Assembly (NCBI RefSeq): GCF_900115155.1
Contig: NZ_FOVM01000006.1
Coordinates: 62,001 to 126,000, forward strand
Reading direction: 5' to 3'
DNA length: 64,000 nt
From: Mycetocola miduiensis
GTDB lineage: Bacteria > Actinomycetota > Actinomycetes > Actinomycetales > Microbacteriaceae
Below the pieces are notes generated by a model that did no database searches, had not been told where the DNA came from, and was given only the letters and a program-made list of their open reading frames with translations. Each line of letters begins with the position of its first letter. The first letter of the stretch is position 1. Shown here in pieces: positions 4,121 through 38,809 of this stretch. Both the position numbers and the translations under genes were made by a program.

Positions 4121-4911
4121 GTGTTGCTCCCGTAGGTGAGTGCGACCGGTGACTGCGGCTGAATCTCTTCGACTTCGTCGAGTCCGCTCTTGGGCGGCGT
4201 TGCCTTGCGGCGGCCGGTGCGGAACCGGTTGTCGAAGTAGTTGACGAGGTGCGTCAGCGGGATGGTGATGATCAGGTAGAAGAGGCCGGCCATGACGAGC
4301 GGCGACAGGTTGCCGGTCAGAACTGCGGCGTCCTGCCCGACCCGGAAGAGTTCACGTTCGCTGACGAGCAGGCCCAGGAAGTACACGAGGCTCGAGTCCT
4401 TGACGATTGCGATGAACTGGTTGACGAGAGCCGGCAGGACCCGTCGGATGCCTTGCGGGACGACGACGAGGCGCATGGCCTTTCCGTAGCTCATGCCGAG
4501 GGCTCGACAGGCCTCAAGCTGGCCGCGGTCGACGCTTTGGATGCCTGCACGGAAGATCTCACCGATGTAGGCGGAAGCGATCAAGCTCAGGGCGAGAATG
4601 CCGAGCGGATAGGGCGAGGGGCCGAACACGGTCTGGCTGAAACGTGCGAAGCCCTGGCCGATGAGAAGGATCGTGAGGATCGCTGGAAGGCCACGGAAGA
4701 TATCCGTGTAGATTCGCGCCGGGATGCGCAGCCAGCGAGAGGTGGAGATGCCCATCACGGCGATGATCATGCCGAGGACGACTCCAATAATCGTGGCTGC
4801 GATGGAGATGATGAGGGTGTTGACGAGGCCGGTGCCGAGCAGTTGCGGCAGGACGACGATCATCGCCTCGACGTCGAAGAAGGTTTTGACGATGTTGTCG
4901 AACCAGTCCAT
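4117..4911 (-). CDS. Polar amino-acid ABC transporter permease
   Basis: A 264-residue HisM/GlnP-type inner-membrane permease with about five hydrophobic segments. The EAA-loop region ([25 protein letters not shown] region, near residue 135) contacts the ATPase. There is one permease gene only, so the complex is probably a homodimer with the neighbouring ATPase. The C-terminal cytoplasmic tail of about 35 residues is unusually long. The stop overlaps the ATPase start by four bases. Confidence 0.9.
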
Positions 4912-4939
4912 GGTGATCTCTCAGAAGCTAGGGGGTGGT

Positions 4940-4973
4940 GCGGGTGTCCACGCGCTGCCGCGCGGACACCCGC
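4940..4973 (-). promoter_or_regulatory. Hairpin between binding-protein and permease genes
   Basis: Perfect 10-base arms, GCGGGTGTCC at 4940-4949 and GGACACCCGC at 4964-4973, with an inner CGCG/CGCG pairing. It lies in the 68-base gap after the solute-binding protein gene. Such hairpins commonly stabilise upstream mRNA or attenuate downstream transcription, giving more binding protein than membrane components. There is no U-tract, so complete termination is unlikely. Confidence 0.6.
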
Positions 4974-4979
4974 AACGGT

Positions 4980-5855
4980 TTAGGATTCAGGCGTCGGGGT
5001 CGACGTCTGTTCGGCTTTCGGCAGGTACTGCTCGGGCATGGGGGAACCTGGGAACCACTTCTCGTACAGTTCCTTCCAGGTTCCGTCTTCCATCGCTTCG
5101 GCGAGTCCCTTGTTGAGGGCCTCCACAAGTTCTGTGTTTCCCTTCGCCACGGCGAAGCCGGCTGGGGCGTCGAACGAGGGGATGTCACTGACGCTGACGA
5201 GTCCGAACTGCTCGATGTATGCCTTGGCCGACTCGTAGTCGAGGAAGTGGGCGTCGACGGTGCCGGTGTTCAGCGCGGAGATTGCCGAGTTGTTGTCGGG
5301 GAACCGCACCAGCTCCGTGTCCTTGAAGTTCTTGACGGCGTAATTCTCCTGGAGCGTGCCCTGGACGACGCCCAGGCGCTTTCCGGCAAGGTCATCCTCC
5401 GTCTTCACGGCCGATTCCTTGGAACTGAGGATGGTGAGGTAGCCGGCGAGGTAACCGTCGCTGAAGTCGACCGTCTGCTTGCGCTCGTCGGTGATGCCGA
5501 TCGCAGCAACCCCGACGTCGTACTGCTCGTTCGCCACGGCGGCGAGGAGGCTGGAGAAGTCCTGCCCGGTGAAGACGACATTGTCGATGCCGACGCGGTC
5601 GGCGACATCCTTGAACAGCTCGACGTCGAAGCCGGTGAACTCTCCACTGGCATCCGTGAAGGTGTACGGCTTGATGTCGCCGACGCTGGCCACGCGGACC
5701 TCGCCCGGGGTGATCAGGTTGTAGGGGTTGTCATCGGTGCTGCCGGCGGCTTGCTGGCTGCCTCCACCTGCTCCGCTGCAGGCAGAGAGAGTGAGGGCGA
5801 CGGCTGCGGCGGCTGCGAGAATTGCGGCCCGGCGACGAGGAACTTGGTACTTCAC
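4980..5855 (-). CDS. Amino-acid-type ABC transporter substrate-binding lipoprotein
   Basis: A 291-residue periplasmic-type binding protein 3 family member (SBP_bac_3). It begins with a GTG codon, an arginine-rich n-region, a hydrophobic core and the lipobox LSAC near residue 25, so it should be a lipoprotein on the outer face of the membrane. Family landmarks include [16 protein letters not shown] and [15 protein letters not shown]. It is the first gene of the leftward operon, and its promoter region holds two palindromes shared with the divergent LacI gene. The likely ligand is an amino acid, opine or fructosyl-amino acid. Confidence 0.9.
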
Positions 5856-5944
5856 GGCGAATCCAATCGGGGTGGTTGGCGTGCAGGCCGGCTGAGCGAC
5901 GGCTCTGTTGCTCTGGGAAGGGAATTGGTGCTGATGGCTTGCCT

Positions 5945-5982
5945 TGAGTCCGGACTCATTTGCTATGGTGAGTCCGGACTCA
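5945..5982. promoter_or_regulatory. Two identical 14-bp palindromic operators for the divergent LacI regulator
   Basis: The perfect palindrome TGAGTCCGGACTCA occurs at 5945-5958 and again at 5969-5982, centres 24 bases apart. Both lie in the 193-base gap between the ABC/Amadori operon (leftward) and the lacI-type gene (rightward). LacI dimers bind such symmetric sites with a central CG. The pair probably represses both directions until an inducer appears. Confidence 0.8.
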
Positions 5983-6048
5983 ATTGCATGAGTAGGAACT
6001 TACATCGGCCCCCGAGGGGTGTCAATAGCCTCTTTTGGAAAGGTTGCC

Positions 6049-7122
6049 ATGACCGCAGCATCGAGGAGACGCGAAGTGACCGTCGCCGACGTCGCACGTG
6101 AGGCGGGCGTCGCGAAAGCCACGGCGTCTCGGGCGCTCGGCGGGTACGGAGCGGTGAGCGATGAAGCGCGCGATCGTGTTCTGGCGGCGGCAGAAGCACT
6201 GGGATATCGCCCAAACGAGCTCGCCCGCAGCATGAACACGGGCAAGTCGAAGACCATCGGGGTCGTCGTCGGCGACATCGAGAACGGCTATTTCGGCTTG
6301 GCGATGCGGGGGATTTCGGATGCCGCGAAGCGGGCCGGGTACGACATCATCCTGGTCAACACGTCCGAAGACGTCGAGGCTGAGATCGACGCGGTGCGCT
6401 TACTCCTCGACAAGCGCGTAGACGGGTTGATCGTCGCCCCCGCATCCGCATACCGAACGGAACACCTGCGCGAAGTGCACCAATCCGGCCACCCGCTCGT
6501 GTTGCTCGACCGGCGGATCGAAAGCTTGCCTGCCGTCTCGGTTGGCGTCGACATCGCTCCGGCTGCGCGTGCAGCGACGAGAGCTCTCGTCGCTGAGGGG
6601 CATCGGCGCATCGCATTTGTTTCCGCGCTGGGGACCGATGGTGAGCGTTACAGCGGATTGCCCCTCGGCGTTTCGTCGGTGACGGACCGCCTGGTGGGGA
6701 TCCTTCAGGGACTGGAAGAGACAGGTATTCCGATTTCGCCAGAGCTGATCCGGTTCGAGGCACACGGCGCGGAGAAGACACATGCGGTGATCGCGGATCT
6801 GCTGGCGCTCAGCGAGCCGCCGACCGCGATCCTCCTTTCGGATAGCCTCGTCGCTCTCAACGTACTGCTCGCTTTCCGCGAGCTGGGAATAAAGGTCCCC
6901 CGCGACGTTTCCGTTGTTGCCTTCGACGACGTCGATTGGGCGGCCATCACCGATCCGCCGATGACGGTCGTGTCCCAGCCGATCTACGACGTCGGTGTCA
7001 CCGCGGCGGAGGAACTGCTTCGACTGATGCGCGGAATGGCGCCGGATGCCACTACTCTTCGTCTGCCTGCGGCGCTGGTGGAGCGGGATTCGATCGGCCC
7101 GGTGGCGGTCAGTGCCCAGTAG
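6049..7122 (+). CDS. LacI-family transcriptional regulator
   Basis: A 357-residue repressor. The start is ATG 6049, preceded by GGAAAGG at 6037-6043; an in-frame GTG at 6019 is less likely. The N-terminal helix-turn-helix (VTVADVAREAGVAKATASRAL) and the hinge region NELARSMNTGKSKTIGVVV are typical, followed by a two-lobed ligand domain (residues about 65-350). It is divergent from the Amadori-type operon and shares two 14-base palindromes with it, so it most likely controls that operon and itself. Its 3' end overlaps the convergent neighbour by 14 bases. Confidence 0.9.
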   Translation: MTAASRRREVTVADVAREAGVAKATASRALGGYGAVSDEARDRVLAAAEALGYRPNELARSMNTGKSKTIGVVVGDIENGYFGLAMRGISDAAKRAGYDIILVNTSEDVEAEIDAVRLLLDKRVDGLIVAPASAYRTEHLREVHQSGHPLVLLDRRIESLPAVSVGVDIAPAARAATRALVAEGHRRIAFVSALGTDGERYSGLPLGVSSVTDRLVGILQGLEETGIPISPELIRFEAHGAEKTHAVIADLLALSEPPTAILLSDSLVALNVLLAFRELGIKVPRDVSVVAFDDVDWAAITDPPMTVVSQPIYDVGVTAAEELLRLMRGMAPDATTLRLPAALVERDSIGPVAVSAQ

Positions 7123-7423
7123 GACGCAGCTCGATCGGCGGCTCGGGCCGCCGCCTCGAGCGCGGCGGGGGCGGCGGCGGCACTTCCTTGGCCGCGATCA
7201 CCGCACTGAACGCGATGGTCTCCAGCCCGCGCTTCGTCGCGATCGCGCAGTGAGTGTCGTCGGCGCGGAGGAACCAGCCGAGGGCATCCGTCGCCTGCCC
7301 GTCAGGCAGCTGGTGTCGCACGACGACGCGGGTTCCTTCGCCGGCGGAGCGGAGGAACGCGACCGCCTCATCGCCTAACATGCGGATTTCGGAGTGTGGG
7401 GGAGCATCCGTCCAGCCTCTCAT
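7109..7423 (-). CDS. Small SH3-like domain protein (resembles N-terminal module of actinobacterial GNATs)
   Basis: A 104-residue protein. The middle part (RVVVRHQLPDG through TDALGWFLRADD and TKRGLETIAFSAVIAAKEVPPPP) resembles the SH3-like module at the N-terminus of Rv0428c-type acetyltransferases, but no acetyltransferase domain follows. The C-terminus is proline- and arginine-rich. It may be a free-standing regulatory or binding module; its function is unknown. It overlaps the lacI gene end by 14 bases, convergently. Confidence 0.6.
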   Translation of the reverse strand: MRGWTDAPPHSEIRMLGDEAVAFLRSAGEGTRVVVRHQLPDGQATDALGWFLRADDTHCAIATKRGLETIAFSAVIAAKEVPPPPPPRSRRRPEPPIELRPTGH

Positions 7424-7506
7424 GAGCCGCCGTCGAACCCCCTAGCCGACCGATCGAGCGGCGGCGTACCCTGATGTCGCCATCAACCAACGACGAAGGG
7501 AACCCC

Positions 7507-8274
7507 ATGCCTGACATCACGGTCACGACTCCCGGCGCACCCTGCTGGCTCGAGCTTACGACCTCAGATCCTGCTCGCTCGCAGGAGTTCTACAGCGCGC
7601 TCTTCGGATGGGACGCAGAAACCGGCGATGAGGTGTTGTACGGCGGGTACGTCAGCTTCAGCATCGCGCACCGGCGCGTGGCCGGCGCCATGAAGAAGCA
7701 GGACGATGCGCCGTACCCCGACACCTGGTCGGTGTACCTGCTCACGACGGATGCTGAGGCGACCGCCGAGGCGATCGCCGAAGCAGGTGGGATGAATATG
7801 TTCGAGGCGATGAACGTGCCGGAGATGGGCGTGATGGGCTTCGCCACCGACCCTGTCGGCGCGACGGTCGGGTATTGGCAGCCAGGCAAGCACACGGGGT
7901 TCCAGGTGGAGCGGGAGCACGGCGCTCCGGTCTGGTGCGAACTGCTGGCGACAGACTTCGACAAGGAGGTCGAGTTCTACGAGAAGGCCTTCGACTGGAC
8001 CCTGAGCCCCGTGGACACCGGCGACGAGTTTCGGTACATGGTGTTCGAGAAAGACGGCAAGCAGTTCTGCGGCATTTACGACGCCGCCTCCATGCTCGGC
8101 GATGAGCCGGCCGGCTGGGCGGTGTATTTCGGTGCGACGGATGTCGACGCAACGGTCGCGAAAGCCGTCGAGCTCGGTGCGACGGTGAAGGACGAAGCCA
8201 CGGACACGCCGTACGGCCGAATTGCGAGCCTCATCGACCCGACCGGGGCTGTGCTGCGAGTGATGTCGATCTGA
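7507..8274 (+). CDS. VOC-family (glyoxalase/bleomycin-resistance fold) protein, two domains
   Basis: A 255-residue protein with tandem VOC domains, residues about 10-120 and 135-255. Both have the F.S.LFGW/FYEKAFDW pattern at their start and GATVGYWQP or GAVLRVMSI at their end. The start ATG 7507 follows a GAAGGGAACC ribosome site; the longer frame from 7474 is not preferred. Family members are often annotated as hydroxylases or resistance proteins, but this branch has no fixed reaction. It stands alone, with no operon partner. Confidence 0.85.
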   Translation: MPDITVTTPGAPCWLELTTSDPARSQEFYSALFGWDAETGDEVLYGGYVSFSIAHRRVAGAMKKQDDAPYPDTWSVYLLTTDAEATAEAIAEAGGMNMFEAMNVPEMGVMGFATDPVGATVGYWQPGKHTGFQVEREHGAPVWCELLATDFDKEVEFYEKAFDWTLSPVDTGDEFRYMVFEKDGKQFCGIYDAASMLGDEPAGWAVYFGATDVDATVAKAVELGATVKDEATDTPYGRIASLIDPTGAVLRVMSI

Positions 8275-8389
8275 GCACTCGCCGAACGGGGCGCTCCGCG
8301 TCCGGGCGGTTTCACTTAGTCCGGACGGATTCATGCGGAGCACCGGGGGTTTCCGTCCGCATCAGGTGATGTCGATCTGATTCTTCGCG

Positions 8390-9400
8390 TCAGCTGGCCC
8401 ACTCGAGCAGGCGCTCGAGCTGCCAGGTGGTCACGATGCGCTCCGCCGGGATGCCGGCCGCCTCGGCGCGGGCGGCGCCCAGGTCGAGGAGGCCGAGTTG
8501 GCCCGGAGCGTGAGCGTCGCTGTCGATGCTGAATAGGCATCCGGCGTCGAGTGCGACCTGGATGAGATCGTCGGGCGGGTCCTGTCGTTCGGGCCGCGAG
8601 TTGATCTCCACGGCGACGTCGTTCTCGGCGCATGCCGCGAAGACGGTGGCCGCGTCGAAGGTCGACTGCGGGCGGGTGCCCCGGCTGCCCTGGATCAGCC
8701 GCCCGGTGCAGTGGCCGAGGACGTTGGATCGTGGATGCCTGATCGCTGCGAGCATCCGTTCGGTCATTGCGTTGGAATCCATCCGTAGCTTGGAGTGCAC
8801 GCTCGCGACGACGAGGTCGAGCCGGCCGAGCACCTCGTCGGACTGGTCGAGTTCTCCGTCGATGAGGATGTCGACCTCGATGCCGGCGAGCATCCGGAAG
8901 TCGTCGAACTGGGCGTTGAGCTCGTCGAGTTCGACCAGCTGCTTCTCGAGGCGTTCGGTGCTGAGCCCGTTCGCGATCGTGAGCGACGGCGAGTGGTCGC
9001 TGGCGACGAGGTAGTCGTGGCCGATGCGCTGGGCGGTGCGCGCCATCGATGCGAGGTCGGTCGTGCCGTCGGACCAGGTGCTGTGACTGTGCAGGTCGCC
9101 TTTGAGTTTCGCCCGCAGCGAGGTACCGGCATCCGTGACCGGGCCGCCGATCTTCTCGCGCAGGTCGGCGAGATAACCGGGAACGTCACCATCGACGGCC
9201 TGTTCGATCACGGTGTACGTGGTAGAGCCGATGCCTTTCGTGCGTTTCAGGCTTCCGTCGGCGACCCGCGTGGCGATTTCGTCGTCGCTGAGCGGCGCGA
9301 TCGCAACGATCGCTGAACGGAAAGCCTTCGTTTTGAACGGCGAGGCGAGGTCGCGCTCCAGGAGGAAGGCGATCTCGTCGAGGGCTTCGGTCGGCCTCAT
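8390..9400 (-). CDS. PHP-domain phosphoesterase, PolX-like without polymerase core
   Basis: A 336-residue protein. Residues 1-90 form a helix-hairpin-helix-like module (LKRTKGIGSTTYTVIEQAV) as in family-X DNA polymerases, and residues about 100-330 form a PHP domain with metal-binding motifs GDLHSHSTWSDG, ASDHS and SIDSDAH. The nucleotidyltransferase core of true PolX is absent. Such proteins are predicted metal-dependent phosphoesterases or nucleases, possibly in DNA repair. It is transcribed alone. Confidence 0.85.
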   Translation of the reverse strand: MRPTEALDEIAFLLERDLASPFKTKAFRSAIVAIAPLSDDEIATRVADGSLKRTKGIGSTTYTVIEQAVDGDVPGYLADLREKIGGPVTDAGTSLRAKLKGDLHSHSTWSDGTTDLASMARTAQRIGHDYLVASDHSPSLTIANGLSTERLEKQLVELDELNAQFDDFRMLAGIEVDILIDGELDQSDEVLGRLDLVVASVHSKLRMDSNAMTERMLAAIRHPRSNVLGHCTGRLIQGSRGTRPQSTFDAATVFAACAENDVAVEINSRPERQDPPDDLIQVALDAGCLFSIDSDAHAPGQLGLLDLGAARAEAAGIPAERIVTTWQLERLLEWAS

Positions 9401-9501
9401 TGCATCTCCGCTCGGTCAGCCGGACAGGTCGGGGTCGTCAGGTTCCCAGCATGGCACCGACGCGGATCGCGGGCGAGCGGTTGCGGCGCGGCATCCGCTC
9501 G

Positions 9502-9615
9502 TCAGCGCGCCTCGAGGATCTGTTTGATGTTCGCGAGGTCCTTGTGGTTCGCGGCATACGCGGCGACGACCGCCTGCGGCCGGCGGACCACGACGGCCGT
9601 TTCGACGTCGATCAT
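9502..9615 (-). CDS. 37-residue small ORF with strong ribosome site; resembles an SRPBCC N-terminus
   Basis: ATG complementary to 9613-9615 is preceded by AAGGAG at ideal distance, only 18 bases after the lipoprotein gene stop. The peptide begins MIDVETAVVVRRPQAVVAAYAAN, like the first strand and helix of SRPBCC/polyketide-cyclase proteins, then ends early with KQILEAR. Either it is a remnant of a larger SRPBCC gene or a genuine small protein. The good ribosome site argues that it is translated. Confidence 0.4.
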   Translation of the reverse strand: MIDVETAVVVRRPQAVVAAYAANHKDLANIKQILEAR

Positions 9616-9633
9616 GGGAACTCCTTGCTGCGG

Positions 9634-11346
9634 CTACTGGTAGGTAACCAGGTCGGGGGCGGGCGAGACGGCAGTCATCGTCTGCTCGGGTGTCAGCATC
9701 GGGAGGTCTTCGTCGTAGAAGTTCTTCCACCCCCAGTAAACGTCGGTCGGGGCGTCGCGGTGCAGGTTCGCCCAGGTCGCCTGTTTGTCGCTCTGGCCGC
9801 CCTGCCCGTCGGCGTGAATGAGTACCGCGACTTCGGGCCGCGAGCGGTCAAGAGACGCGCGGTCAGAGATCATGGCCGTCCGGAACTGGTGCAGCACGAG
9901 CATCTTCTGCGGCAGGGACTTCTCGTTGGTCAGGTCGGCGAGCCAGCTGGTCACGGTGTTGATCTCGGCGGCGCTGACGGAGCCGATCTGTCGCAGTGGA
10001 ACCTGGTCGGGTCCGAGCCGCCATTCCGGGTCGAGGGCGAGGCCGACATTCGGCAGTTCGAGCAGCGGCTGGTACATCTTCGCCTGGGTGAGGAAGTCGG
10101 TACGGCCCGGCTGCAGGTCGAGGACGACATACAGTCCCGCTGCGGCTGCGGCATCCACGAAGGGCCGGAGGCTGTCGACCGGCAGCTCGTTGGAGTAGTT
10201 GCCGTCCGCGCCCGCGCCAGCGGCGGCGACGGTCGCGATGATCTCGAACATGGGCACGACGGTTTTGTCGGTGAGGGCCTCGTAGGGAGCCGCGAGGTCC
10301 CTGGCGCGCTGGACCGAAGCTTCAGCGCCCTGTTCGCCGAGGACGCCGAGGACGCCCGTGCTCGGCGTGCCGTACAGGGCCACGAACTGGTGTTGCGGGA
10401 ACAGGACCTGCCCGCCGCCCGGCAGCTGTGTGCCGCTTCGGGCCGTACGGATCTTCCAGTCCAGGGCCGGTTGGCCGGCGAACTCGGCGCCGATCGCCAA
10501 GGTTTTGGTTGTCTTCGACGCGTGCAGCGCCTCGATGACGGATGCCTGCGCTTGCGGGTTCGGGGACTCGGCGGGAAGCAGATGCACCGGAATGCCCGCT
10601 GCCCGCGCTGTCGCAATCGAGGCGAGCTGGGCGGCGCCGTCGACCGCGAGTGCGACCGTGTCTTCGAGCGGCGCGGCGCGTTTCGGGTGGGGGATGCTCG
10701 TCGACGGGCCGGTGCTGGCGTGGCTGTCGCCGGATTGGTCTGGCTTGGGTGCTTCGTGGGCGGCGATGATGGTCGCGAAACCGGCCGGGTCATCCGTGGC
10801 GGGTTTTGCGAGTTTGAGACCGGTCGCCTCGGAAATGTCCGCAGCTTTCGCCGGCACTTGTTCGACGGTGATCTCATCGTCGTGCACCGGTTCGACGTTG
10901 CCGATAACGAGTGCCGTGGTGGTGCCCAGTCGCTCCAGTTCGGCATCCAGCCCGGAGGCTGCGCTGTCCTCGGTCGCCGCCGGGCTGCTGGATTCTTCCT
11001 CCGGCGCAGCGGTCGTCGTGCTCGTGCTCGTGGGTTTACCGGTGTCGCCGACCAGTAGCGGAACGCCGAGGCCGATCGCGGTGCGGGCCGCCAGTTCCTG
11101 AGCGTTGGCGTCGCCGGTGGGGGCGATGACGACAACGGGGGACGAGTCGAACAGTTCCCGGCTCGTCGCGACGGATGCATCCCGGTCGTCGGGTGCGTCG
11201 ATCACCGTGAGGGCGGCATCCGGACCGGATGTCTTCACCGCGCCACTCGACGGGCGATCCGGCGCGCTCGCGGTGCACGCCGTGAGCGCGAGGAGCCCCA
11301 TCAGTGCCAAGGCGGTAGGCCGCGTGAGCCGGGTCAGGGTTGGCAT
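9634..11346 (-). CDS. Large secreted lipoprotein with repeat region and C-terminal barrel-like domain
   Basis: 570 residues from the ATG complementary to 11344-11346, giving a lipoprotein signal (TRLTRPTALALMGLLALTAC) with lipobox LTAC near residue 24; a start six codons upstream is possible. A Thr/Ser-rich low-complexity stretch lies near residues 115-135. Residues about 25-330 contain repeats of the type VVVIAPTG, TALVIGNV and TLAIGAE that recall cell-wall-binding-repeat-2 folds. The last 200 residues (VVPMFEIIATV, GLYVVLDLQPG, GLALDPEW, VLIHADGQGG) read like a TIM barrel. The function is unknown; an exported cell-envelope protein is likely. Confidence 0.7.
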   Translation of the reverse strand: MPTLTRLTRPTALALMGLLALTACTASAPDRPSSGAVKTSGPDAALTVIDAPDDRDASVATSRELFDSSPVVVIAPTGDANAQELAARTAIGLGVPLLVGDTGKPTSTSTTTAAPEEESSSPAATEDSAASGLDAELERLGTTTALVIGNVEPVHDDEITVEQVPAKAADISEATGLKLAKPATDDPAGFATIIAAHEAPKPDQSGDSHASTGPSTSIPHPKRAAPLEDTVALAVDGAAQLASIATARAAGIPVHLLPAESPNPQAQASVIEALHASKTTKTLAIGAEFAGQPALDWKIRTARSGTQLPGGGQVLFPQHQFVALYGTPSTGVLGVLGEQGAEASVQRARDLAAPYEALTDKTVVPMFEIIATVAAAGAGADGNYSNELPVDSLRPFVDAAAAAGLYVVLDLQPGRTDFLTQAKMYQPLLELPNVGLALDPEWRLGPDQVPLRQIGSVSAAEINTVTSWLADLTNEKSLPQKMLVLHQFRTAMISDRASLDRSRPEVAVLIHADGQGGQSDKQATWANLHRDAPTDVYWGWKNFYDEDLPMLTPEQTMTAVSPAPDLVTYQ

Positions 11347-32112: not shown

Positions 32113-33144
32113 CTACGCGAGCATCTCCCGCACCATAGGAACCACTTGCGTGCCGTACAGCTCGATGCTCGTCATCAGTTGCTCGTGCGGCATCGTCCCG
32201 TTCGCGTACTTGAGGTCAAAGCGGTCCAGCCCGAGCGTCTGAGCTGTCGCAGCGATTCGCCGCGCGACCGTCTCCGGAGAACCGGCGTACAGCGACCCGT
32301 GCTCGATCTCGCTGAGGTACTCCGCTTCGGTCACCGGCGGCCAGCCGCGCTCGGCGCCGATGCGGTCGCGGTTCTTCTTGAAATGCGGCCAGAGCTGCTC
32401 GCGGGCGAGCTCGTCGGTGGCGGCGATGTGCCCCGGGGAGTGCGCGCCGAGCGGCATCCGCGGCAGGCCAAGCTGGTCGGACGCCCGCCCGTAAAGCTCC
32501 ACGTACGGCAGGAAGCGGCCCGGGTCGCCGCCGATGATCGCGAGCATCATCGGGATACCGGTGCGCACCGACCGCACGACGGACTCCGGTGACCCGCCGA
32601 CGCCGATCCACGCAGTGAGCCGGCCGGACTCGGTCTTGGGGAAGACATCCTGGTCGACGAGCGGGGCGCGGTAACTGCCGGACCAAGTGACCGGCTTCTC
32701 CTTGAGCAGCTGCACGAAGAGGTCGAGCTTCTCATTGAAGAGGGTCTCGTAGTCGGCGAGGTCGAAGCCGAATAGCGGGAACGACTCGGTGAACGAGCCG
32801 CGGCCGAGAATGACTTCCGCGCGACCGTTGCTGGCGGCATCCAGGGTGGAGAAGCGCTCGAAGACGCGAATCGGGTCGTCGCTGGAGAGTACGGTGACGG
32901 CGGTGCCGAGGTGGATGCGTTCGGTCTGGCCGGCGATCGCGGCGAGCACCATGTCGGGGGCGGAGATGGCGAAGTCGTCGCGGTGGTGTTCGCCGATGCC
33001 GATGAAGTCGATGCCGACCTGGTCGGCGAGCACACCCTGGGCGATGACGTTGCGGATCACCTGGGCGTCGCTCTGGCGCTCGCCGGTGCTGTCGACGGTG
33101 ACGTCGCCGAAGGTGTCGAGTCCGAGTTCGAGGTGCTTTGCCAT
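32113..33144 (-). CDS. LLM-class flavin-dependent oxidoreductase
   Basis: A 343-residue luciferase-like monooxygenase fold: IDFIGIGEHHRDDFAISAPD, RIHLGTAVTVLSSDDPIRVFE and GRAEVILGRGS are characteristic of this branch. It uses reduced FMN supplied by another enzyme. The substrate is unknown. It lies between the truncated PIN gene and the DUF2075 gene, and is probably not part of the defence-like cluster. Confidence 0.85.
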   Translation of the reverse strand: MAKHLELGLDTFGDVTVDSTGERQSDAQVIRNVIAQGVLADQVGIDFIGIGEHHRDDFAISAPDMVLAAIAGQTERIHLGTAVTVLSSDDPIRVFERFSTLDAASNGRAEVILGRGSFTESFPLFGFDLADYETLFNEKLDLFVQLLKEKPVTWSGSYRAPLVDQDVFPKTESGRLTAWIGVGGSPESVVRSVRTGIPMMLAIIGGDPGRFLPYVELYGRASDQLGLPRMPLGAHSPGHIAATDELAREQLWPHFKKNRDRIGAERGWPPVTEAEYLSEIEHGSLYAGSPETVARRIAATAQTLGLDRFDLKYANGTMPHEQLMTSIELYGTQVVPMVREMLA

Positions 33145-33236: not shown

Positions 33237-35018
33237 CTACTCGTCTGCCGGTATAAAGGCGCGGAGGTACTCGCGGAGGGCGGGGTCGCAGACGTAAACG
33301 AACGTGCCGCGGATGCCGCGGGTCAAGAGGACCGCGTAGACGTTCCGAATGAATCGCAGCAGGTCCTCGTCCGTGTACTTCTTCTGGAGAACCTTGTTGT
33401 TCTCCTTACCCTTCTTGTCGAAGTACGACGCGCGGTCGACGAATAGTCGCCCGGTCTTCGCGTCATAGCGAAGGTCAGGCCCAATGATGACGCCAGCGTA
33501 ATTGAGGTCATACCCTTGCACGGTGTGGATTGACCCCACTTCTTCGAGGGACGTCCGCGACGCGACCCAGTCCGTCTGGGTGCTGTTCCAACGGAACTGA
33601 TGACCATCAATCTCAATGTCGTAGGCAGTCTTGTCATTCTTGGATTTCCAAGGCCATGCGAAGCCGGCCAGCATACGAGAAAGTCCCGCTTCTTCTTCCT
33701 TCCGACGCACTTCGGCCCGCATATCGGCAACGCTGTCGAACATCCGGAAGTCGTATCCTTCGAACTGTTCTTTCGCGGGAATATGGGGATCGTCCCAAGG
33801 GCCCGGGGAACCGAGGACGCGCCGAATGTATGCCACGTAGTCCGACCCTGCCTGAACCCGCATCTGCGTAGCCAGCGGGTAGTGACGATGTCGATCCTTC
33901 GCGCTATTGACGAGTGCCCCGAGCAGTTCAGGCGGAACGTCGGCAGGGCGCACGCTCTGTTCGGCGTCGAGCAGATAGATCTGGTGCTTGCTCTTTGCGC
34001 GGATCCAGTCGAGCTGGGTCTTGGCCACGTCATCGAAGCCGAAGAGCTTCTTCGTGATGTCGGCGAAGTTCTTGTTTTGCACGCCGGACGGTTGGTTTGC
34101 GCGCTGGTTGAGACGGTGCGCTTCGTCGACGATCAAAAGGTCGAAGTCTTCATCAGCGTTCCCGACATCAAACGCCGTCAACACCATCGACGGTTTTAGG
34201 CCCGGAGTCTTCCGGAACACCTTTCTGATCGACTCGCGCAGAGACTGTTGCGGCACGACCAGACCTATCCGGAGATCGGTCAAGAGCGCACGATTCTGGG
34301 GGATGAACAGCTCTGAGAACATCGTGTCGCTGTCGAAATCCTCTACCGCGACGGTGTTCGCAATGTCGACTAGCAGCTTCAGCATGTAAATCGCGACAAC
34401 CGTCTTGCCGGTCCCTGGCTCGCCCTGAATCACGATCGTGCTGTTGGTGTCCGACTCAAGGTCCTCGAAGAGCCCCTCGAGAATGTCCTCAACTGCAATC
34501 GCTTGGTCCTGGGTCAGCGCCTTGAACGGAGAGAGTTTGAAGAGATCGCTGTTCTCAATCTCCGGGATGCTCCGGGTGAAGACTCCATCGGCCTGCAGCT
34601 TGTCGAAGACCTCACGAAACGATTCCCGGTACAAGTCGCGGTCGTAGTAGTCGCCATCCGTGATGCCGTCGTTTCGGTTCAGCACACGATATGCCCCATC
34701 GCCGGCGAGGAGCCGGATGAGGAACGACTCGAGGTCCAGACAGGCTGACTTGTTGAACCGTTCGTCGACAATGACGCGGATGCGTTTCAGGTGCCGTTTG
34801 TCTGGAGAGTCGAGGTGCTGTCGCATCCGAACTGCTGCGTTTCGAGACTCTCCCACATAGACGTCGCGAAGGCTCCCGCCAGTCGAGCTTGTCTTCTCGG
34901 CCAGGGCATCGTCGAGGACATATACAACGGGCCAGTTGGTGTTTCGTGGGTGGCTCGGAGCCCACCGGGTGACTGCCTCAGGAGTGAAATCGAGGCGCGA
35001 GATCTCAGAGGGCGTCAT
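33237..35018 (-). CDS. GIY-YIG/DUF2075 ATPase-nuclease (candidate defence protein)
   Basis: 593 residues. The N-terminal part (about 25-110) reads as a GIY-YIG nuclease: WPVVYVLDD, DVYVGESRNAAVRMRQHL. The main body is a P-loop DUF2075 domain with Walker A GEPGTGKT near residue 200, Walker B LLIVDEAH near 293 and a helicase-like C-terminal half (GSIHTVQGYDLNYAGVIIG, LLTRGIRGTFVYV). Such proteins are predicted DNA/RNA helicase-like ATPases linked to mobile defence islands. The start overlaps the preceding pyrophosphatase gene by 14 bases, implying tight coupling. Confidence 0.8.
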   Translation of the reverse strand: MTPSEISRLDFTPEAVTRWAPSHPRNTNWPVVYVLDDALAEKTSSTGGSLRDVYVGESRNAAVRMRQHLDSPDKRHLKRIRVIVDERFNKSACLDLESFLIRLLAGDGAYRVLNRNDGITDGDYYDRDLYRESFREVFDKLQADGVFTRSIPEIENSDLFKLSPFKALTQDQAIAVEDILEGLFEDLESDTNSTIVIQGEPGTGKTVVAIYMLKLLVDIANTVAVEDFDSDTMFSELFIPQNRALLTDLRIGLVVPQQSLRESIRKVFRKTPGLKPSMVLTAFDVGNADEDFDLLIVDEAHRLNQRANQPSGVQNKNFADITKKLFGFDDVAKTQLDWIRAKSKHQIYLLDAEQSVRPADVPPELLGALVNSAKDRHRHYPLATQMRVQAGSDYVAYIRRVLGSPGPWDDPHIPAKEQFEGYDFRMFDSVADMRAEVRRKEEEAGLSRMLAGFAWPWKSKNDKTAYDIEIDGHQFRWNSTQTDWVASRTSLEEVGSIHTVQGYDLNYAGVIIGPDLRYDAKTGRLFVDRASYFDKKGKENNKVLQKKYTDEDLLRFIRNVYAVLLTRGIRGTFVYVCDPALREYLRAFIPADE

Positions 35019-35325
35019 ATTTCGTGCTTCGGCCGCGTGCTTTTTCTATTGGGTATTTTTCGCGGGTCTTAGCCAGCTTGTCCTTGACGATCTGGCTTGG
35101 GTCGGCACCGATGCGGTCGGCGAGAAGCATGCAGTAGGTCAGCACGTCGGCGAGCTCCTCCCGTACGCGGGCAGGGTCGGCGTCGGCATCCCACTGGAAG
35201 CACTCGAGCAACTCGCCTGCCTCGATGGCGATGCTCTTCGCGAGGTTCTCGGGGCTATGAAACTGAGCCCACTCGCGCTCGGCCATGAACGCTGCGATCT
35301 CGTCGCGGACTGACTTTTCGACCAT
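35005..35325 (-). CDS. MazG-like nucleotide pyrophosphohydrolase, DCTPP1-like
   Basis: 106 residues. The four-helix MazG-like fold has EAGELLECFQWDAD and REELADVLTYC, the EExxE/ExxD metal motif of all-alpha NTP pyrophosphatases. WAQFHSPENLAKSI, then the C-terminal KYP...STKYDAL, match the dCTP pyrophosphatase (DCTPP1/RS21-C6) branch closely. That enzyme hydrolyses dCTP and 5-modified dCTP. It is transcribed before, and overlaps, the DUF2075 gene. It is not clearly distinguishable from general housekeeping members by sequence alone. Confidence 0.75.
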   Translation of the reverse strand: MVEKSVRDEIAAFMAEREWAQFHSPENLAKSIAIEAGELLECFQWDADADPARVREELADVLTYCMLLADRIGADPSQIVKDKLAKTREKYPIEKARGRSTKYDAL

Positions 35326-35453
35326 TCCGTCAACTTAGCAGCGACGGTGACTTGCCCTAGTGCGCCGACTGGGATCCTGATCCTTGCATTTGAATCGCTA
35401 CGATCAATTCCTTAGAGACGTCAGCCGACACGGATGCAATGGAAGAAGGCCTG

Positions 35454-35915
35454 ATGAGCGGCACGAAGAAGTCAAGGCGTCGAGCGCGACGAGATTCGAA
35501 TGAGGCCACGAAGTTCGGGCGACACGTTCCATGGGTGCCAGCCGAACTCCCGGATGTTGCACGGCCCTTTTGGCCGCCGAAATCTGAGTGGCCTACCGAC
35601 GGCGAGGTAGATGATTTCGTACGCGCAACCCGCAAACGGGCCGAAGCTCGCCTTCACGTTATGACCGGGCTGCGACGATATGCAGAGCCCGGGCCGGCTC
35701 ACATGCTGATCGGCATCGGGTCTGTAGTAATCGCAATTGCAGCGTTCGGTGTCAGCGCCGCTACGGCAGTCCCGGCCCTTCAAATAGGGATTCTTCTGGC
35801 GGCTGTCCCGTACGTGGCGTTGGTCACGTACGGGATTGGCTTCGCTCTTAACGTCGACAAGCAACGGAAAATGGCATTGGTCTGGCTCCTCGCGATCGAG
35901 TCGCGACTCCATTAG
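35454..35915 (+). CDS. Small membrane protein of unknown function
   Basis: 153 residues from ATG 35454 with GAAGAAGG five bases upstream. The N-terminal 75 residues are charged and Arg-rich (TKKSRRRARRD), then a short amphipathic region, then two membrane segments (HMLIGIGSVVIAIAAFGVSAATAV and LLAAVPYVALVTYGIGFALNV). No family is recognised. It diverges from the pyrophosphatase gene and precedes the HsdR-N-like gene, separated by a 299-base gap without a visible gene. Confidence 0.6.
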   Translation: MSGTKKSRRRARRDSNEATKFGRHVPWVPAELPDVARPFWPPKSEWPTDGEVDDFVRATRKRAEARLHVMTGLRRYAEPGPAHMLIGIGSVVIAIAAFGVSAATAVPALQIGILLAAVPYVALVTYGIGFALNVDKQRKMALVWLLAIESRLH

Positions 35916-36214
35916 CACTTGAGTCTGACGAGACGCAGAATTGGTGCGGTCGCTTCTGGGAGGCTTCGGCTTGTCGCCGGCGCCATGACACTTCAGCGGT
36001 AGGGCCCTCGGTTACTCACCCCAGTGAAACGGCGAGTCGGCGGGCTAGGGATGTGCCTCGCATTGGGTGGGAAAAACTATGCCCATGAATGGAAGCATCT
36101 GAAAGGGGGAATGCAGATGCCACGGGCGCCATTCGAAGGCGAATCCACCTGGTGACGATACCTCCAGAAGATCGAGCGGCAACGGCCGTCTGTCGAGCAA
36201 CGACCTGGAGTGAC

Positions 36215-37312
36215 ATGGATTTCGCAGAACTACTCACCGCAATGGCCACGAAGGTCCGCAACCAGCGGGATGCAATCCAAACCGAGGAAGCGACGAAGAA
36301 CGCATTTGTCATGCCCTTCATCTCCTCAATCCTTGGGTACGACGTATTCAACCCCTTGGAGGTCGTGCCGGAGTTCACGGCCGATGTTGGTATCAAACGC
36401 GGCGAGAAGATCGACTACGCAATCATGCGTGACGGCGAAGTGCAAATGCTCATCGAATGCAAGAAATCGACAGAGCCGCTGAAGATTGAGCACGCCTCAC
36501 AACTGTTCCGGTACTTCGCAGTTACCAATGCTCGTATTGCGGTGCTCACCAATGGGGAGACGTACCAGTTCTACACAGACCTCGACGCTCCGAACCGGAT
36601 GGACGAAAAGCCGTTCCTGGTGCTGGATCTTCTCGACATCGATGAGACTCTGATCCCCGAGCTGATTAAGCTCACCAAGGACGTGTTCGACCTCGATTCG
36701 ATCATCTCTGCCGCTGGAGAGCTGAAGTACATCGGGCAGATCAAACGCACGATTGCCGCTCAGTTTAAGGATCCTGAGGACGACTGGATCCGTTTCTTTA
36801 CGACCCGCGTCTACGACGGAGCGTTCACTCAGAAAGTGCGGGAGCAGTTCACGACATTGGTCACGAAAGCAACGAAGCAGTTCCTCAATGATCAGGTCAA
36901 CGACCGGCTGAAGACGGCTCTTGGTGCTTCGAGCTTCCCAATCGCAGAGAGTACTGCTGCTGCAGAGGCCGTCACCAGCCGACCGGTCGCCGAAGATGAT
37001 CTGGATAGGGACACTGAGCTGGAAACCACTCTTGAGGAGCTCGAGGGGTATCAGATCGTCAAGGCGATCGCATGCAGCGAAGTCCGTCCGCACCGCGTCG
37101 TTCACCGCGATGCCAAGTCCTACTTCGCTGTCCTCCTGGACGACAACAACCGAAAACCGATCGCCCGCCTGCACTTCAACGGCAAAAGGCAGAAGTACCT
37201 CGGCCTTTTCGACGCAGACAAGAACGAGACCCGCTACGCGATCGAGTCGCTCGATGAGATCTACCACCACGCGTCCGCGATTAGAGAGATGGTCAAGGCG
37301 TACGAGAACTAG
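36215..37312 (+). CDS. HsdR-N-type restriction nuclease without helicase
   Basis: 365 residues from ATG 36215, GGAG four bases upstream; the longer frame from 36089 lacks a site and reads as leader. The N-terminal 110 residues are a type I restriction HsdR_N nuclease: GEKIDYAIMRDGEVQMLIECKK is split over the PD-(D/E)XK core (D then E.K), with NARIAVLTNGETYQFY following. The helicase half of HsdR is absent; the C-terminal 200 residues have no recognised domain (ALGAS..., VVHRDAKSYFAVLLDD). It forms a two-gene unit with the next gene. The 299-base gap upstream holds only its leader. Confidence 0.75.
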   Translation: MDFAELLTAMATKVRNQRDAIQTEEATKNAFVMPFISSILGYDVFNPLEVVPEFTADVGIKRGEKIDYAIMRDGEVQMLIECKKSTEPLKIEHASQLFRYFAVTNARIAVLTNGETYQFYTDLDAPNRMDEKPFLVLDLLDIDETLIPELIKLTKDVFDLDSIISAAGELKYIGQIKRTIAAQFKDPEDDWIRFFTTRVYDGAFTQKVREQFTTLVTKATKQFLNDQVNDRLKTALGASSFPIAESTAAAEAVTSRPVAEDDLDRDTELETTLEELEGYQIVKAIACSEVRPHRVVHRDAKSYFAVLLDDNNRKPIARLHFNGKRQKYLGLFDADKNETRYAIESLDEIYHHASAIREMVKAYEN

Positions 37313-37315
37313 ACC

Positions 37316-38404
37316 ATGCCGGTCAACACGCCCGCGACTCTGTCGCTTCAACTCCAAGTTCCGCAAAAACGTATTCGTGACATTCTTCGAGGTTTGTATG
37401 GAACCCTCCCGCAGGGCTTAAGTCGCTGGGAGTTGGACCAAGAAATGACGGATGCCGTCAGGGCGGCCGTCGGTCCCGGCAGCGCCAGCGATTCGCTCTT
37501 ATGGACGCTTGAGATTGGCGACCAAGTTCGGCGACGGGAGGTTCATGACGCCTATGGTGGTCAGCAGCAAGGAGGCATATCCACCCCTCGACGAATCCCC
37601 GACATCTTGGTCTTCACGGATCCCGTCAAAGGAGCCCGCTATGGATACGAGAAGTTCGAGGGGCTACGCGAAGATGGGTCCTATTCCTACACAGGGGAGG
37701 GGCAACGCGGCGATCAGGTTTTCGTGCGGGGCAACGTTGCGCTGCGCGACGCGGCGAAAAATGGGCAAATCATTAGAGTCTTCACGACGCGAGGCCCGGT
37801 GGCTACATACGTCGGCTCCTTTTCCACAGGAGAGCCGACATATCGGGTCGAAACCATTCCCGACGTCGACGGGAAATGGCGAAGAGGCATCATCTTCAAT
37901 CTCATTCCCATCGACGCTGATGCGACGCTCCTCCCCCTCTACGGTGGAGGCAAGGTATCGGGGCCAAACATTGCGGACTGGACCCCGCCGGACTTCTCAG
38001 ACGTTGTCATCGAATTTGACGCACCTCTCCCCGCTGGAGAACGAGTAGTTTCGCGACTCGAATTTGAGTTGCAGGCTGGCTTCGGTGGTTGGCTAAAGAG
38101 CGAAGGTCTCATACCGAGTCGGCTGACTTTGCCCAGTGGAGCGTTCGCGATCGAACCTGACCTTTACGTCGAATCGAATGGGTGGATTGTCGAGGCGAAG
38201 AAATCTACAGCCCGCACATACGTTCGGACGGCCATCGGGCAAGTGCTCGACTATGCGCATGTCGCGAAGGGTGCGGGCATAGCCGCTGTCCCAATGGTGC
38301 TTCTGCCGGGCAAGCCGGCAGACGATCTCATAGGTCTGATGAATGAGCTGGGAATTACGGTTGCGGTTCGATCCGAGAGCGGATTTGAACTACTCGTTCC
38401 TTGA
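37316..38404 (+). CDS. ScoMcrA-type SRA reader with PD-(D/E)XK-like C-terminus (type IV-like)
   Basis: 362 residues, starting 3 bases after the HsdR-N gene. Residues about 70-170 carry the ScoMcrA-like SRA pattern (EVHDAYGGQQQGGISTPR, then YTGEGQRGDQ, GNVALRDA), as in the modified-DNA reader SCO4631. The C-terminal part has EPDLYVESNGWIVEAKKS, which fits PD-(D/E)XK nucleases (D...E-A-K), in place of the usual HNH domain. This suggests a type IV-like restriction protein that cuts modified DNA. The 3' end overlaps the convergent NUDIX gene by 15 bases. Confidence 0.7.
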   Translation: MPVNTPATLSLQLQVPQKRIRDILRGLYGTLPQGLSRWELDQEMTDAVRAAVGPGSASDSLLWTLEIGDQVRRREVHDAYGGQQQGGISTPRRIPDILVFTDPVKGARYGYEKFEGLREDGSYSYTGEGQRGDQVFVRGNVALRDAAKNGQIIRVFTTRGPVATYVGSFSTGEPTYRVETIPDVDGKWRRGIIFNLIPIDADATLLPLYGGGKVSGPNIADWTPPDFSDVVIEFDAPLPAGERVVSRLEFELQAGFGGWLKSEGLIPSRLTLPSGAFAIEPDLYVESNGWIVEAKKSTARTYVRTAIGQVLDYAHVAKGAGIAAVPMVLLPGKPADDLIGLMNELGITVAVRSESGFELLVP

Positions 38405-38809
38405 GATGGCGGTGCTCGCGAGTATTGCGACGGCGTGCACATCTGCCGGCGCCCAGTCAAGTGCGTCCAATTGAGATGGGCGAACCCAACGGAGCTCATC
38501 ATGATCGCTGCTCCTGGTTGGTCGGTCGCTGATGAGGTGAGCGCGAAAACACATAAGACGAATGATCTGCCCGGCACTTGGAGTGTCATCGGTAGTCAGA
38601 TGCTCGAGAACTTGGATTTCGACGTCAAGCTCCTCCTTCACCTCTCTGATTAGTGCTTGTTCAGGAGACTCACCATGTTCGATCTTGCCTCCCGGGAATT
38701 CCCACTTTCCGCCCTGGGCGCGACCAGGCTCGCGCCGGCAGACGAGGATCCGGCTCTCGTGCTGGATAACGGCTGCGACGACGTTCAGTGGCTGCGCTGG
38801 TGATGACAT
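38390..38809 (-). CDS. NUDIX hydrolase, NudG/MutT-like (nucleoside triphosphatase)
   Basis: 139 residues. The NUDIX box GGKIEHGESPEQALIREVKEEL follows the GX5EX7REUXEEXGU pattern (the final G-U is D-V here). VVAAVI at the start, WEFPGGKIE, and HDELRWV, with WAPADVHAVAIL at the end, resemble E. coli NudG, which prefers 5-methyl- and 5-hydroxymethyl-dCTP, and also CTP. MutT-like cleaning of oxidised dGTP is the alternative. It is convergent with the SRA gene and overlaps it by 15 bases. Confidence 0.75.
   Translation of the reverse strand: MSSPAQPLNVVAAVIQHESRILVCRREPGRAQGGKWEFPGGKIEHGESPEQALIREVKEELDVEIQVLEHLTTDDTPSAGQIIRLMCFRAHLISDRPTRSSDHDELRWVRPSQLDALDWAPADVHAVAILASTAISRNE

Follow-up and report, generated by a model that had tools for sequence, protein, structure and literature searches.

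Positions 33237-38809 of the Mycetocola miduiensis DNA that we analyzed (G000:C6:62001-126000, a stretch of 64,000 nucleotides from a 3.3-Mb genome, G000; hereafter the window) hold a gene cluster that is, on balance, probably a type IV-like restriction locus with a nucleotide-pool arm removing 5-modified dCTP. An original prediction, made from the sequence of the window, had proposed the region as a defense island against phages with modified cytosine, and all six genes that it listed (6/6) are present as open frames (Table 1). Pfam confirmed its SLFN-g3/DUF2075, MazG-like, NUDIX and helicase-free HSDR_N assignments. It had also suggested that the SRA-domain protein, the NUDIX hydrolase, the MazG-like pyrophosphatase and the DUF2075 protein (a GIY-YIG/SLFN-g3 helicase-nuclease, here SLFN) recur together beyond chance, and they do. 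In the window's SRA clade, 28 of 30 distinct loci have a NUDIX gene within 1.6 kb, and MazG-SLFN lies within 5 kb of 7 of the 24 intact SRA genes of the same bacterial family; the respective expectations of 0.01 and 0.02 assume even scatter and are a yardstick only, the methylase contrast described below being the better control. This SRA clade almost always comes with the NUDIX gene, and MazG-SLFN recurs as a second pair. Recurrence in related bacteria and on plasmids suggests a defense acting both on DNA and on its precursors, and as a whole the earlier interpretation is partly supported.

The SRA nuclease and its NUDIX partner

Taken alone, the window's SRA protein stays under the Pfam cut-off for SAD_SRA (E 0.023). 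Its relatives are more telling: 18 of 54 family members matched PF02182 (SAD_SRA) at E<=0.01, and a profile of the 54 sequences found ScoMcrA within the SRA region (5zmn, E 2e-7; domain limits from PMC6224610) and the SRA domain of SUVH5 (E 0.006). Judged from these matches, the SRA identity is weak for the single protein and firm for its family. The C-terminal part carries E249, D282, E293-x-K295 and Q309xxxY313, positions that are invariant or at least 90% conserved in the 54 sequences; we take this E...D...ExK...QxxxY arrangement to be a PD-(D/E)XK pattern. The earlier description of a ScoMcrA-type SRA protein with a PD-(D/E)XK-like end thus stands on the family profile and the conserved motif, though not on the Pfam score of the window protein. 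One C-terminal half (L119) is 47% identical to the window's and is joined to a different reader, the N-terminal part of which resembles that of a VcaM4I-like protein; L076 is built alike. Such swapping of readers onto one nuclease fits a modification-dependent enzyme, and we file the window protein as a candidate of this type IV-like class. Relatives of the SRA protein are also encoded at nine viral loci, the best of them 33% identical.

Characterized enzymes give this class assignment a context. ScoMcrA (Sco4631), an SBD-SRA-HNH type IV endonuclease whose SRA region groups with the window protein's family (5zmn, E 2e-7), prefers DNA with 5-hydroxymethylcytosine (5hmC) and restricts T4gt (PMC7461809), and reader-nuclease relatives cut DNA with 5hmC and 5-methylcytosine (5mC) and restrict T4gt (PMC7461809, PMC6212794). 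The window protein, in contrast, has no visible sulfur-binding domain, carries a PD-(D/E)XK-like domain at the end where ScoMcrA has HNH, and has a NUDIX partner. The MspJI and PvuRts1I families combine the same two domain types, and the SRA-then-nuclease order is that of MspJI (PMC12707154, PMC7897488). However, a search with the window protein alone gave no PDB chain at E<=1, and pool enzymes go unmentioned for those families in the available parts of these papers. Other arrangements were also seen. At L062 (G209), 7419-10464, a protein with a weak EVE match, an SRA domain and a PD-(D/E)XK-like end has a convergent NUDIX and a diverged SLFN-g3 helicase as neighbors. In Streptomyces (L260, L263, L264, L272) and Nonomuraea (L270, L293), a distant SRA-nuclease and a SauUSI-like protein are at most 1 kb apart, so that two type IV-like enzymes stand side by side.

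The SRA search matched 43 of 398 same-family genomes. We kept the 24 with an intact SRA-nuclease gene and dropped 19 (6 C-terminal pieces or broken copies, 6 short SRA-only frames and 7 matches to about the first 50 residues only). In the window's clade, 15/15 SRA genes have a NUDIX at their 3' end in convergent orientation; outside it only 1/9 has a NUDIX (Fisher p 1e-5), which lies on the same strand as the SRA gene. Repeated, broken SRA copies in L184 and L185 (G643, G690) each lie beside a NUDIX frame; the C-terminal-only genes of L076, L119 and L186 have none beside them. The wider sample came from a scan of genome contigs, and among the best 80 of 133 related stretches the closest named loci to the window SRA gene were from Microbacteriaceae. 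On the resulting tree (106 rows after removal of 13 duplicates, with fragments of <270 residues excluded and some rows near copies), the clade NUDIX is convergent in 27/28 loci and within 140 bases in 27/28, the exception being L228 (1.4 kb). A single clade of SRA-linked NUDIX genes, which we had expected beforehand, did not emerge from the NUDIX tree: well-supported branches force at least five label changes, a count made approximate by three rows with very long branches. The NUDIX partners are not monophyletic, so exchange or recruitment of the gene happened repeatedly, with the arrangement staying the same.

The window NUDIX has an intact Nudix box and matches the PADLOC phage-defense candidate profile PDC-S07 (E 3.7e-45), for which the PADLOC output names no function and no partner. 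Its nearest solved chains are 5x1x, 2rrk (Escherichia coli CTP pyrophosphohydrolase NudG) and 5zrc (mycobacterial MutT2). NudG, MutT2 and DCTPP1 act on 5-methyl-dCTP (PMC5389931, PMC10742078). For each of the two hydrolases, the nearest solved chains take in the kind of dCTP and 5-methyl-dCTP enzyme on which the original prediction relied. The window enzyme may work like NudG, though we do not file it as NudG; the one enterobacterial neighborhood inspected (a Klebsiella record) is without a restriction gene. At L222 (G149:C1:2644000-2653000, 4516-6900), the NUDIX that came closest to the window's in the 130-genome search (55% identity) has neighbors with links to base hypermodification, namely an ADDT / aGPT-PPlase3 protein and a homologue of thymidylate synthase.

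The NUDIX could instead be a general cleaner of 8-oxo-dGTP and other oxidized nucleotides that limits damage at nuclease breaks and has nothing to do with modified cytosine. The best solved match, 5x1x, is indeed named mutator MutT, and MutT2 digests other dNTPs too (PMC10742078). We consider this explanation unlikely: the partners of the NUDIX are readers of modified cytosine and not nucleases in general, a published list gives E. coli NudG (2RRK) as a 5-methyl-dCTP pyrophosphatase (PMC5389931), and one close NUDIX lies beside thymidylate synthase and ADDT genes.

The NUDIX family goes with several unrelated type IV enzymes. In 130 same-family genomes we found 32 matches to the accessory NUDIX (E<=1e-20), with neighbors known for 16: eight are SauUSI-like, two are SRA-PD-(D/E)XK proteins, one is an EVE-HNH protein close to VcaM4I (6yex, E 9e-17) and one is an HNH_2 protein. 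SauUSI has a PLD-helicase-DUF3427 architecture (PMC12707154, PMC3874153). DUF3427 occurs in 10 of 135 same-family genomes, and a NUDIX frame (E<=1e-20) abuts the gene upstream in 8/10, seven by coordinates and one (L181) by direct reading. Four long DUF3427 proteins (L084, L331, L335, L340) were compared with PADLOC profiles, and all four hit mREase_IV. Although SauUSI-like enzymes share this directly upstream NUDIX type (also in three plasmid records), their nuclease and motor are unrelated to the window's, and the window genome has no PF11907 match.

Sixteen plasmid records carry such a NUDIX, and we read 15 of them (not H35); 7/16 are from Priestia and so are not independent. In 12 of the 15 neighborhoods the NUDIX is adjacent or fused to a modification-dependent enzyme or an annotated HNH equivalent (Table 1). 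The natural fusion, in Paenibacillus polymyxa, has an HNH part close to TagI (6ghc, E 1e-22). No modification-dependent enzyme lies beside the NUDIX in H32, H34 or H37, the neighbor in H32 being a sub-threshold EVE protein. On a Selenomonas plasmid, the gene directly after the NUDIX (L337:5447-5974) encodes a small protein that matches EVE below threshold.

The MazG-SLFN pair and its cytosine-methylation setting

At an E value of 1e-3 or less, the window SLFN protein matched 148 of 398 same-family genomes. The 104 loci with a window-type SLFN comprise the window, 95 loci from this search and eight from a class-wide search (four in other families). MazG accompanies SLFN in 99 of the 104, within 1 kb in 98, and the MazG-DUF2075 sub-unit of the original prediction is therefore a recurrent pair. 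The SLFN protein adds a sub-threshold GIY-YIG match (Pfam, E 0.006) to PF09848, the former DUF2075. Across 108 SLFN sequences, conservation reaches 98-100% at its GIY-YIG positions (Y33, Y54, G56, E57, R64, H68, E97 and N114) as well as at the Walker A GKT and DEAH positions. MazG has dCTP pyrophosphatase 1 / RS21-C6 as its nearest solved chains (E 2e-19) and aligns over nearly its whole length. Counted from the alignment, E35, E38, E57 and D60 correspond to mouse DCTPP1/RS21-C6 positions 63, 66, 95 and 98, and W19, H23, W45 and Y64 to positions 47, 51, 73 and 102; these residues and F22 are 95-96% conserved in 108 sequences. Presumably they are four metal-binding acidic residues and an aromatic base pocket, and on this evidence the enzymes look active. 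Compared with DCTPP1, the window MazG is bacterial and shorter, and its gene overlaps that of the helicase-nuclease.

The fetched stretches of the 104 loci hold HSDR_N in 12, NUDIX in 13, a cytosine-5 methylase in 15, Vsr in 10 and McrBC in 6. The SRA profile matched in nine, with seven intact genes within 5 kb, one at 12 kb and the nuclease half only at L119. On the SRA tree the MazG-SLFN label requires 12 gains or losses, counting diverged SLFN-g3 helicases (~24-26% identical). Microbacterium oxydans BEL163 has HSDR_N, SRA, NUDIX, MazG and SLFN within 4.8 kb, in an order unlike that of the window and with 53-76% identity gene by gene; the four genes without HSDR_N are found together in Microbacterium sp. 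MYb54 and at two loci of genus g11. We also considered that viruses carry MazG-SLFN and rejected the idea, since no match came up when viral sequences were searched with one protein, an approach limited to close relatives.

As a control for defense-island clustering, we used 70 same-family genomes carrying MazG-SLFN. After merging pieces of one gene, these contain 41 cytosine-5 methylase genes (PF00145; 33 genomes) and 24 adenine methylase genes of the type I kind (N6_Mtase, PF02384; 19 genomes). Within 10 kb of SLFN lie 15/41 of the former versus 0/24 of the latter (Fisher p 5e-4), the nearest N6_Mtase gene being 86 kb away. Within the family, the neighborhood of SLFN is thus biased to cytosine methylation and not to defense in general. 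Cytosine-5 methylase with Vsr is a second cytosine-methylation setting of MazG-SLFN (L101, L104, L105, L116, L118, L120, L121, L122). The fetched stretches of the seven loci with SRA and MazG-SLFN contain no cytosine-5 methylase.

This control bears on the possibility that separate defense and mobile genes only share a hotspot, as in ordinary defense islands, and have no joint function. MazG-SLFN does lie in a plastic region, with a left flank common to the genus and differing content to the right, HSDR_N matches a phage gene family and many SLFN loci have other neighbors. We nonetheless consider island clustering improbable. It does not fit the methylase contrast, N6_Mtase genes being typical of islands, or the recurrence of the pairing in other phyla and as a fusion, and it is already a weak explanation for SRA-NUDIX, the NUDIX being directly adjacent in the clade.

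A stronger rival, modeled on nucleotide-depletion defenses, is that MazG-SLFN stands alone: the helicase-nuclease would sense infection, MazG would deplete dCTP, and the pair would join type IV enzymes only through the same target phages. The pair is kept mostly without SRA or NUDIX, its catalytic residues are conserved, and its two genes overlap. Of 22 plasmid records matched by SLFN, 10 were read, one of them unannotated, and several of their SLFN genes have no type IV neighbor. However, a Lactiplantibacillus plantarum plasmid has NUDIX, a SauUSI-like enzyme, MazG and GIY-YIG/SLFN in one row, and in two Paenibacillus plasmids a DUF3578/MrcB_N gene precedes SLFN; the Priestia record H29 is the fourth with a type IV-like gene nearby. 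Together with the family's bias to cytosine-5 methylation genes and the repeated joining of SRA nucleases, the L. plantarum row leads us to regard a stand-alone role as somewhat unlikely.

The locus in its genome

The MazG and SLFN genes overlap by 14 bases, and the SRA and NUDIX genes are convergent with a 15-base tail-to-tail overlap. With the HSDR_N start corrected to ATG 36215, only 3 bases separate HSDR_N from the SRA gene, a gap that suggests a single transcript in the window.

Table 1. Genes of the M. miduiensis locus (window positions) and genes beside or fused to the accessory NUDIX in plasmid records.
Feature	Position or record	Strand	Basis
GIY-YIG nuclease with SLFN-g3 (DUF2075) helicase, 593 residues	33237..35018	-	Pfam PF09848, E 2e-69
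MazG-like pyrophosphatase, DCTPP1 type, 106 residues	35005..35325	-	Pfam PF12643, E 5e-21
Small putative membrane protein, between the two halves of the locus	35439..35915	+	no family match
Lone HSDR_N endonuclease, putative optional neighbor, 367 residues	36215..37312	+	Pfam PF04313, E 2e-12
SRA reader with PD-(D/E)XK-like nuclease, candidate modification-dependent endonuclease, 362 residues	37316..38404	+	family profile and motif
NudG/MutT2-like NUDIX hydrolase	38390..38809	-	Pfam NUDIX, E 7e-22
Plasmid neighbor, SauUSI-like	H22, H27, H33		H33 by tblastn of a Staphylococcus aureus record
Plasmid neighbor, EVE-HNH type	H24, H25, H26, H36		H25 by 6yex, E 1e-64; H26 and H36 by similarity to H25; H24 by annotation only
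Plasmid neighbor, HNH	H23, H30, H31		H23, SRA-like YTGxGQxGxQ stretch by eye; H31, HNH by Pfam; H30 by annotation
Plasmid neighbor, MrcB_N protein followed by MazG and DUF2075	H29 (Priestia)		weak HNH match in the MrcB_N protein
Plasmid HNH-NUDIX fusion, 487 residues	H28 (Paenibacillus polymyxa pSb31l), L332:3921-5384		one frame

The original prediction had counted the HSDR_N gene and the membrane protein in the set and had joined HSDR_N to the SRA gene as a second sub-unit, with the NUDIX attached to neither sub-unit. These parts did not hold. The HSDR_N protein carries PF04313 alone, without a helicase domain (Pfam), and matches the phage endonuclease family phrog_4225 over its full length (E 2e-125); it does not qualify as a type I HsdR, which has helicase/translocase domains and HsdM and HsdS partners. 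Its gene occurs in 26 of 130 same-family genomes, lying within 8 kb of an SLFN locus that we read only in G000, G347 and G011, and within 8 kb of SLFN in 12 of the 104 loci. HSDR_N looks like a widespread phage-type gene and an optional neighbor. As a core unit, HSDR_N with SRA was rejected, since besides the window the two were seen near each other in this SRA clade only at L184, L194 and L238, and the near-constant partner of SRA is the NUDIX. Pfam, PADLOC and NCBIfam gave no match for the membrane protein, and tblastn found nothing like it at E<=1e-5 in the 142 loci fetched; it was therefore rejected as a component.

In 2-kb steps, the G+C fraction is 0.57-0.59 across 33-39 kb versus 0.62-0.68 in the adjoining steps, with a second dip (0.59-0.60) at 22-27 kb of the window. 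At the left edge, an LLM-type oxidoreductase (window 32113-33144; also in L203-L206) marks a plastic region in the genus. MazG-SLFN adjoins this gene in G001, and is about 27 kb from it in G002 and about 49 kb in G003. Comparison with empty sites gave no clean island boundary, the left flank being common to the genus and the right one genome-specific. No methylase was matched among the six frames (Pfam). At E<=1e-10 the window genome has a single PF00145 match, on another contig, and none to N6_Mtase.

A possible division of labor between nuclease and pool hydrolases

Type IV enzymes come without a protective methylase, and 'self' is unmodified DNA. 'Self' must then stay unmodified, and cleaning of the nucleotide pool would guard it. 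What the sequences show are the domains and their conserved catalytic residues, the recurring pairs, the repeated joining on the SRA tree, the bias to cytosine-methylation neighbors and one natural fusion; cleavage at modified cytosine, the substrates of the hydrolases, the beneficiary and any physical interaction between the proteins are our inferences. The SRA domain would read 5mC or 5hmC, leaving cleavage of the DNA to the C-terminal PD-(D/E)XK-like domain. The NUDIX and the DCTPP1-like MazG would hydrolyze 5-modified dCTP, keeping the modified base out of new DNA, and the GIY-YIG/SLFN-g3 helicase-nuclease may be a second DNA-cutting module recruited to such loci. The host chromosome would then stay free of the mark cut by its own nuclease, and pool cleaning could guard unmodified 'self' also when degraded or phage-converted nucleotides are recycled. 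A second benefit would be to starve the phage of 5-hydroxymethyl-dCTP (hmdCTP). Because conversion of the dCTP pool to hmdCTP precedes the entry of 5hmC into DNA (PMC3874153), a hydrolase of 5-modified dCTP would act one step upstream of the nuclease.

Alternatively, the hydrolases could be offensive only, destroying phage-made hmdCTP as in the original prediction, with no part in host self-protection. Phages with 5hmC do turn the dCTP pool into hmdCTP (PMC3874153), and the characterized SRA, EVE and SauUSI enzymes act on 5hmC/5mC phages or phage DNA (PMC7461809, PMC6212794, PMC7897488, PMC3874153). Yet the fixed partner of the hydrolase is a nuclease, a fact that is easier to explain if the nuclease needs the hydrolase. 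This point is not decisive, and we find a purely offensive role rather doubtful. The hydrolase lies beside several unrelated nucleases and is fused to one, which points to a need of the nuclease itself; we therefore rank self-protection slightly first as the commoner benefit, ahead of phage starvation.

Several observations weigh against a modified-cytosine restriction locus with a pool arm. The PD-(D/E)XK assignment is motif-based, without a profile or structure match, and the ScoMcrA SRA has none of the 5mC-contacting residues of UHRF1/SUVH5 (PMC6224610), so that base specificity is not readable from sequence. The window NUDIX misses the NCBIfam equivalog cut-off for pyrimidine NTP diphosphatase (PRK10546; 99.2 vs 156 bits), and the name of 5x1x, its best structural match, keeps 8-oxo-dGTP among the possible substrates. 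Partners can also be missing or different. In the family set 8/9 distant SRA-nucleases have no NUDIX, the clade SRA genes of Leifsonia aquatica and L. virtsii have none within 1.6 kb, and at 97 of the 104 loci no intact SRA gene is found less than 5 kb from MazG-SLFN. Among the 16 accessory NUDIX loci, three have no restriction-type neighbor and one lies beside base-hypermodification genes (thymidylate synthase and ADDT). A type IV-like gene is near SLFN in only four of nine annotated plasmid regions, and three of the nine, outside the family in Priestia, Ligilactobacillus and Fructilactobacillus, are near adenine methylases.

Each enzyme type is already known, and the NUDIX is already PADLOC candidate PDC-S07. 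We found no description of an SRA-NUDIX, type IV-NUDIX or MazG-DUF2075 pairing in the accessible open-licence literature; the words nudix and MutT are absent from the main texts of the TagI paper, the VcaM4I paper and a 2013 review of modification-dependent enzymes, as is nudix from the main text of a 2025 restriction review. A pool-level partner of type IV restriction, as a general claim, would be new if enzyme data agree. As a tentative generalization, which we put somewhat short of probable, type IV restriction would commonly have a pool-hydrolase 'immunity' partner, a NUDIX often joined by a DCTPP1-like MazG with a GIY-YIG/SLFN-g3 helicase, which would keep 5-modified dCTP from the host chromosome and also deny phages their modified precursors. 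If true, the pool hydrolase does at the precursor level the job that falls to the cognate methylase elsewhere in restriction, the candidate defense gene PDC-S07 gains a function, and MazG-SLFN gains a testable role. The recurrence of a pool hydrolase beside unrelated type IV enzymes suggests that the unmodified state of the host needs enforcing, or that modified phages are hit both before and after DNA synthesis.

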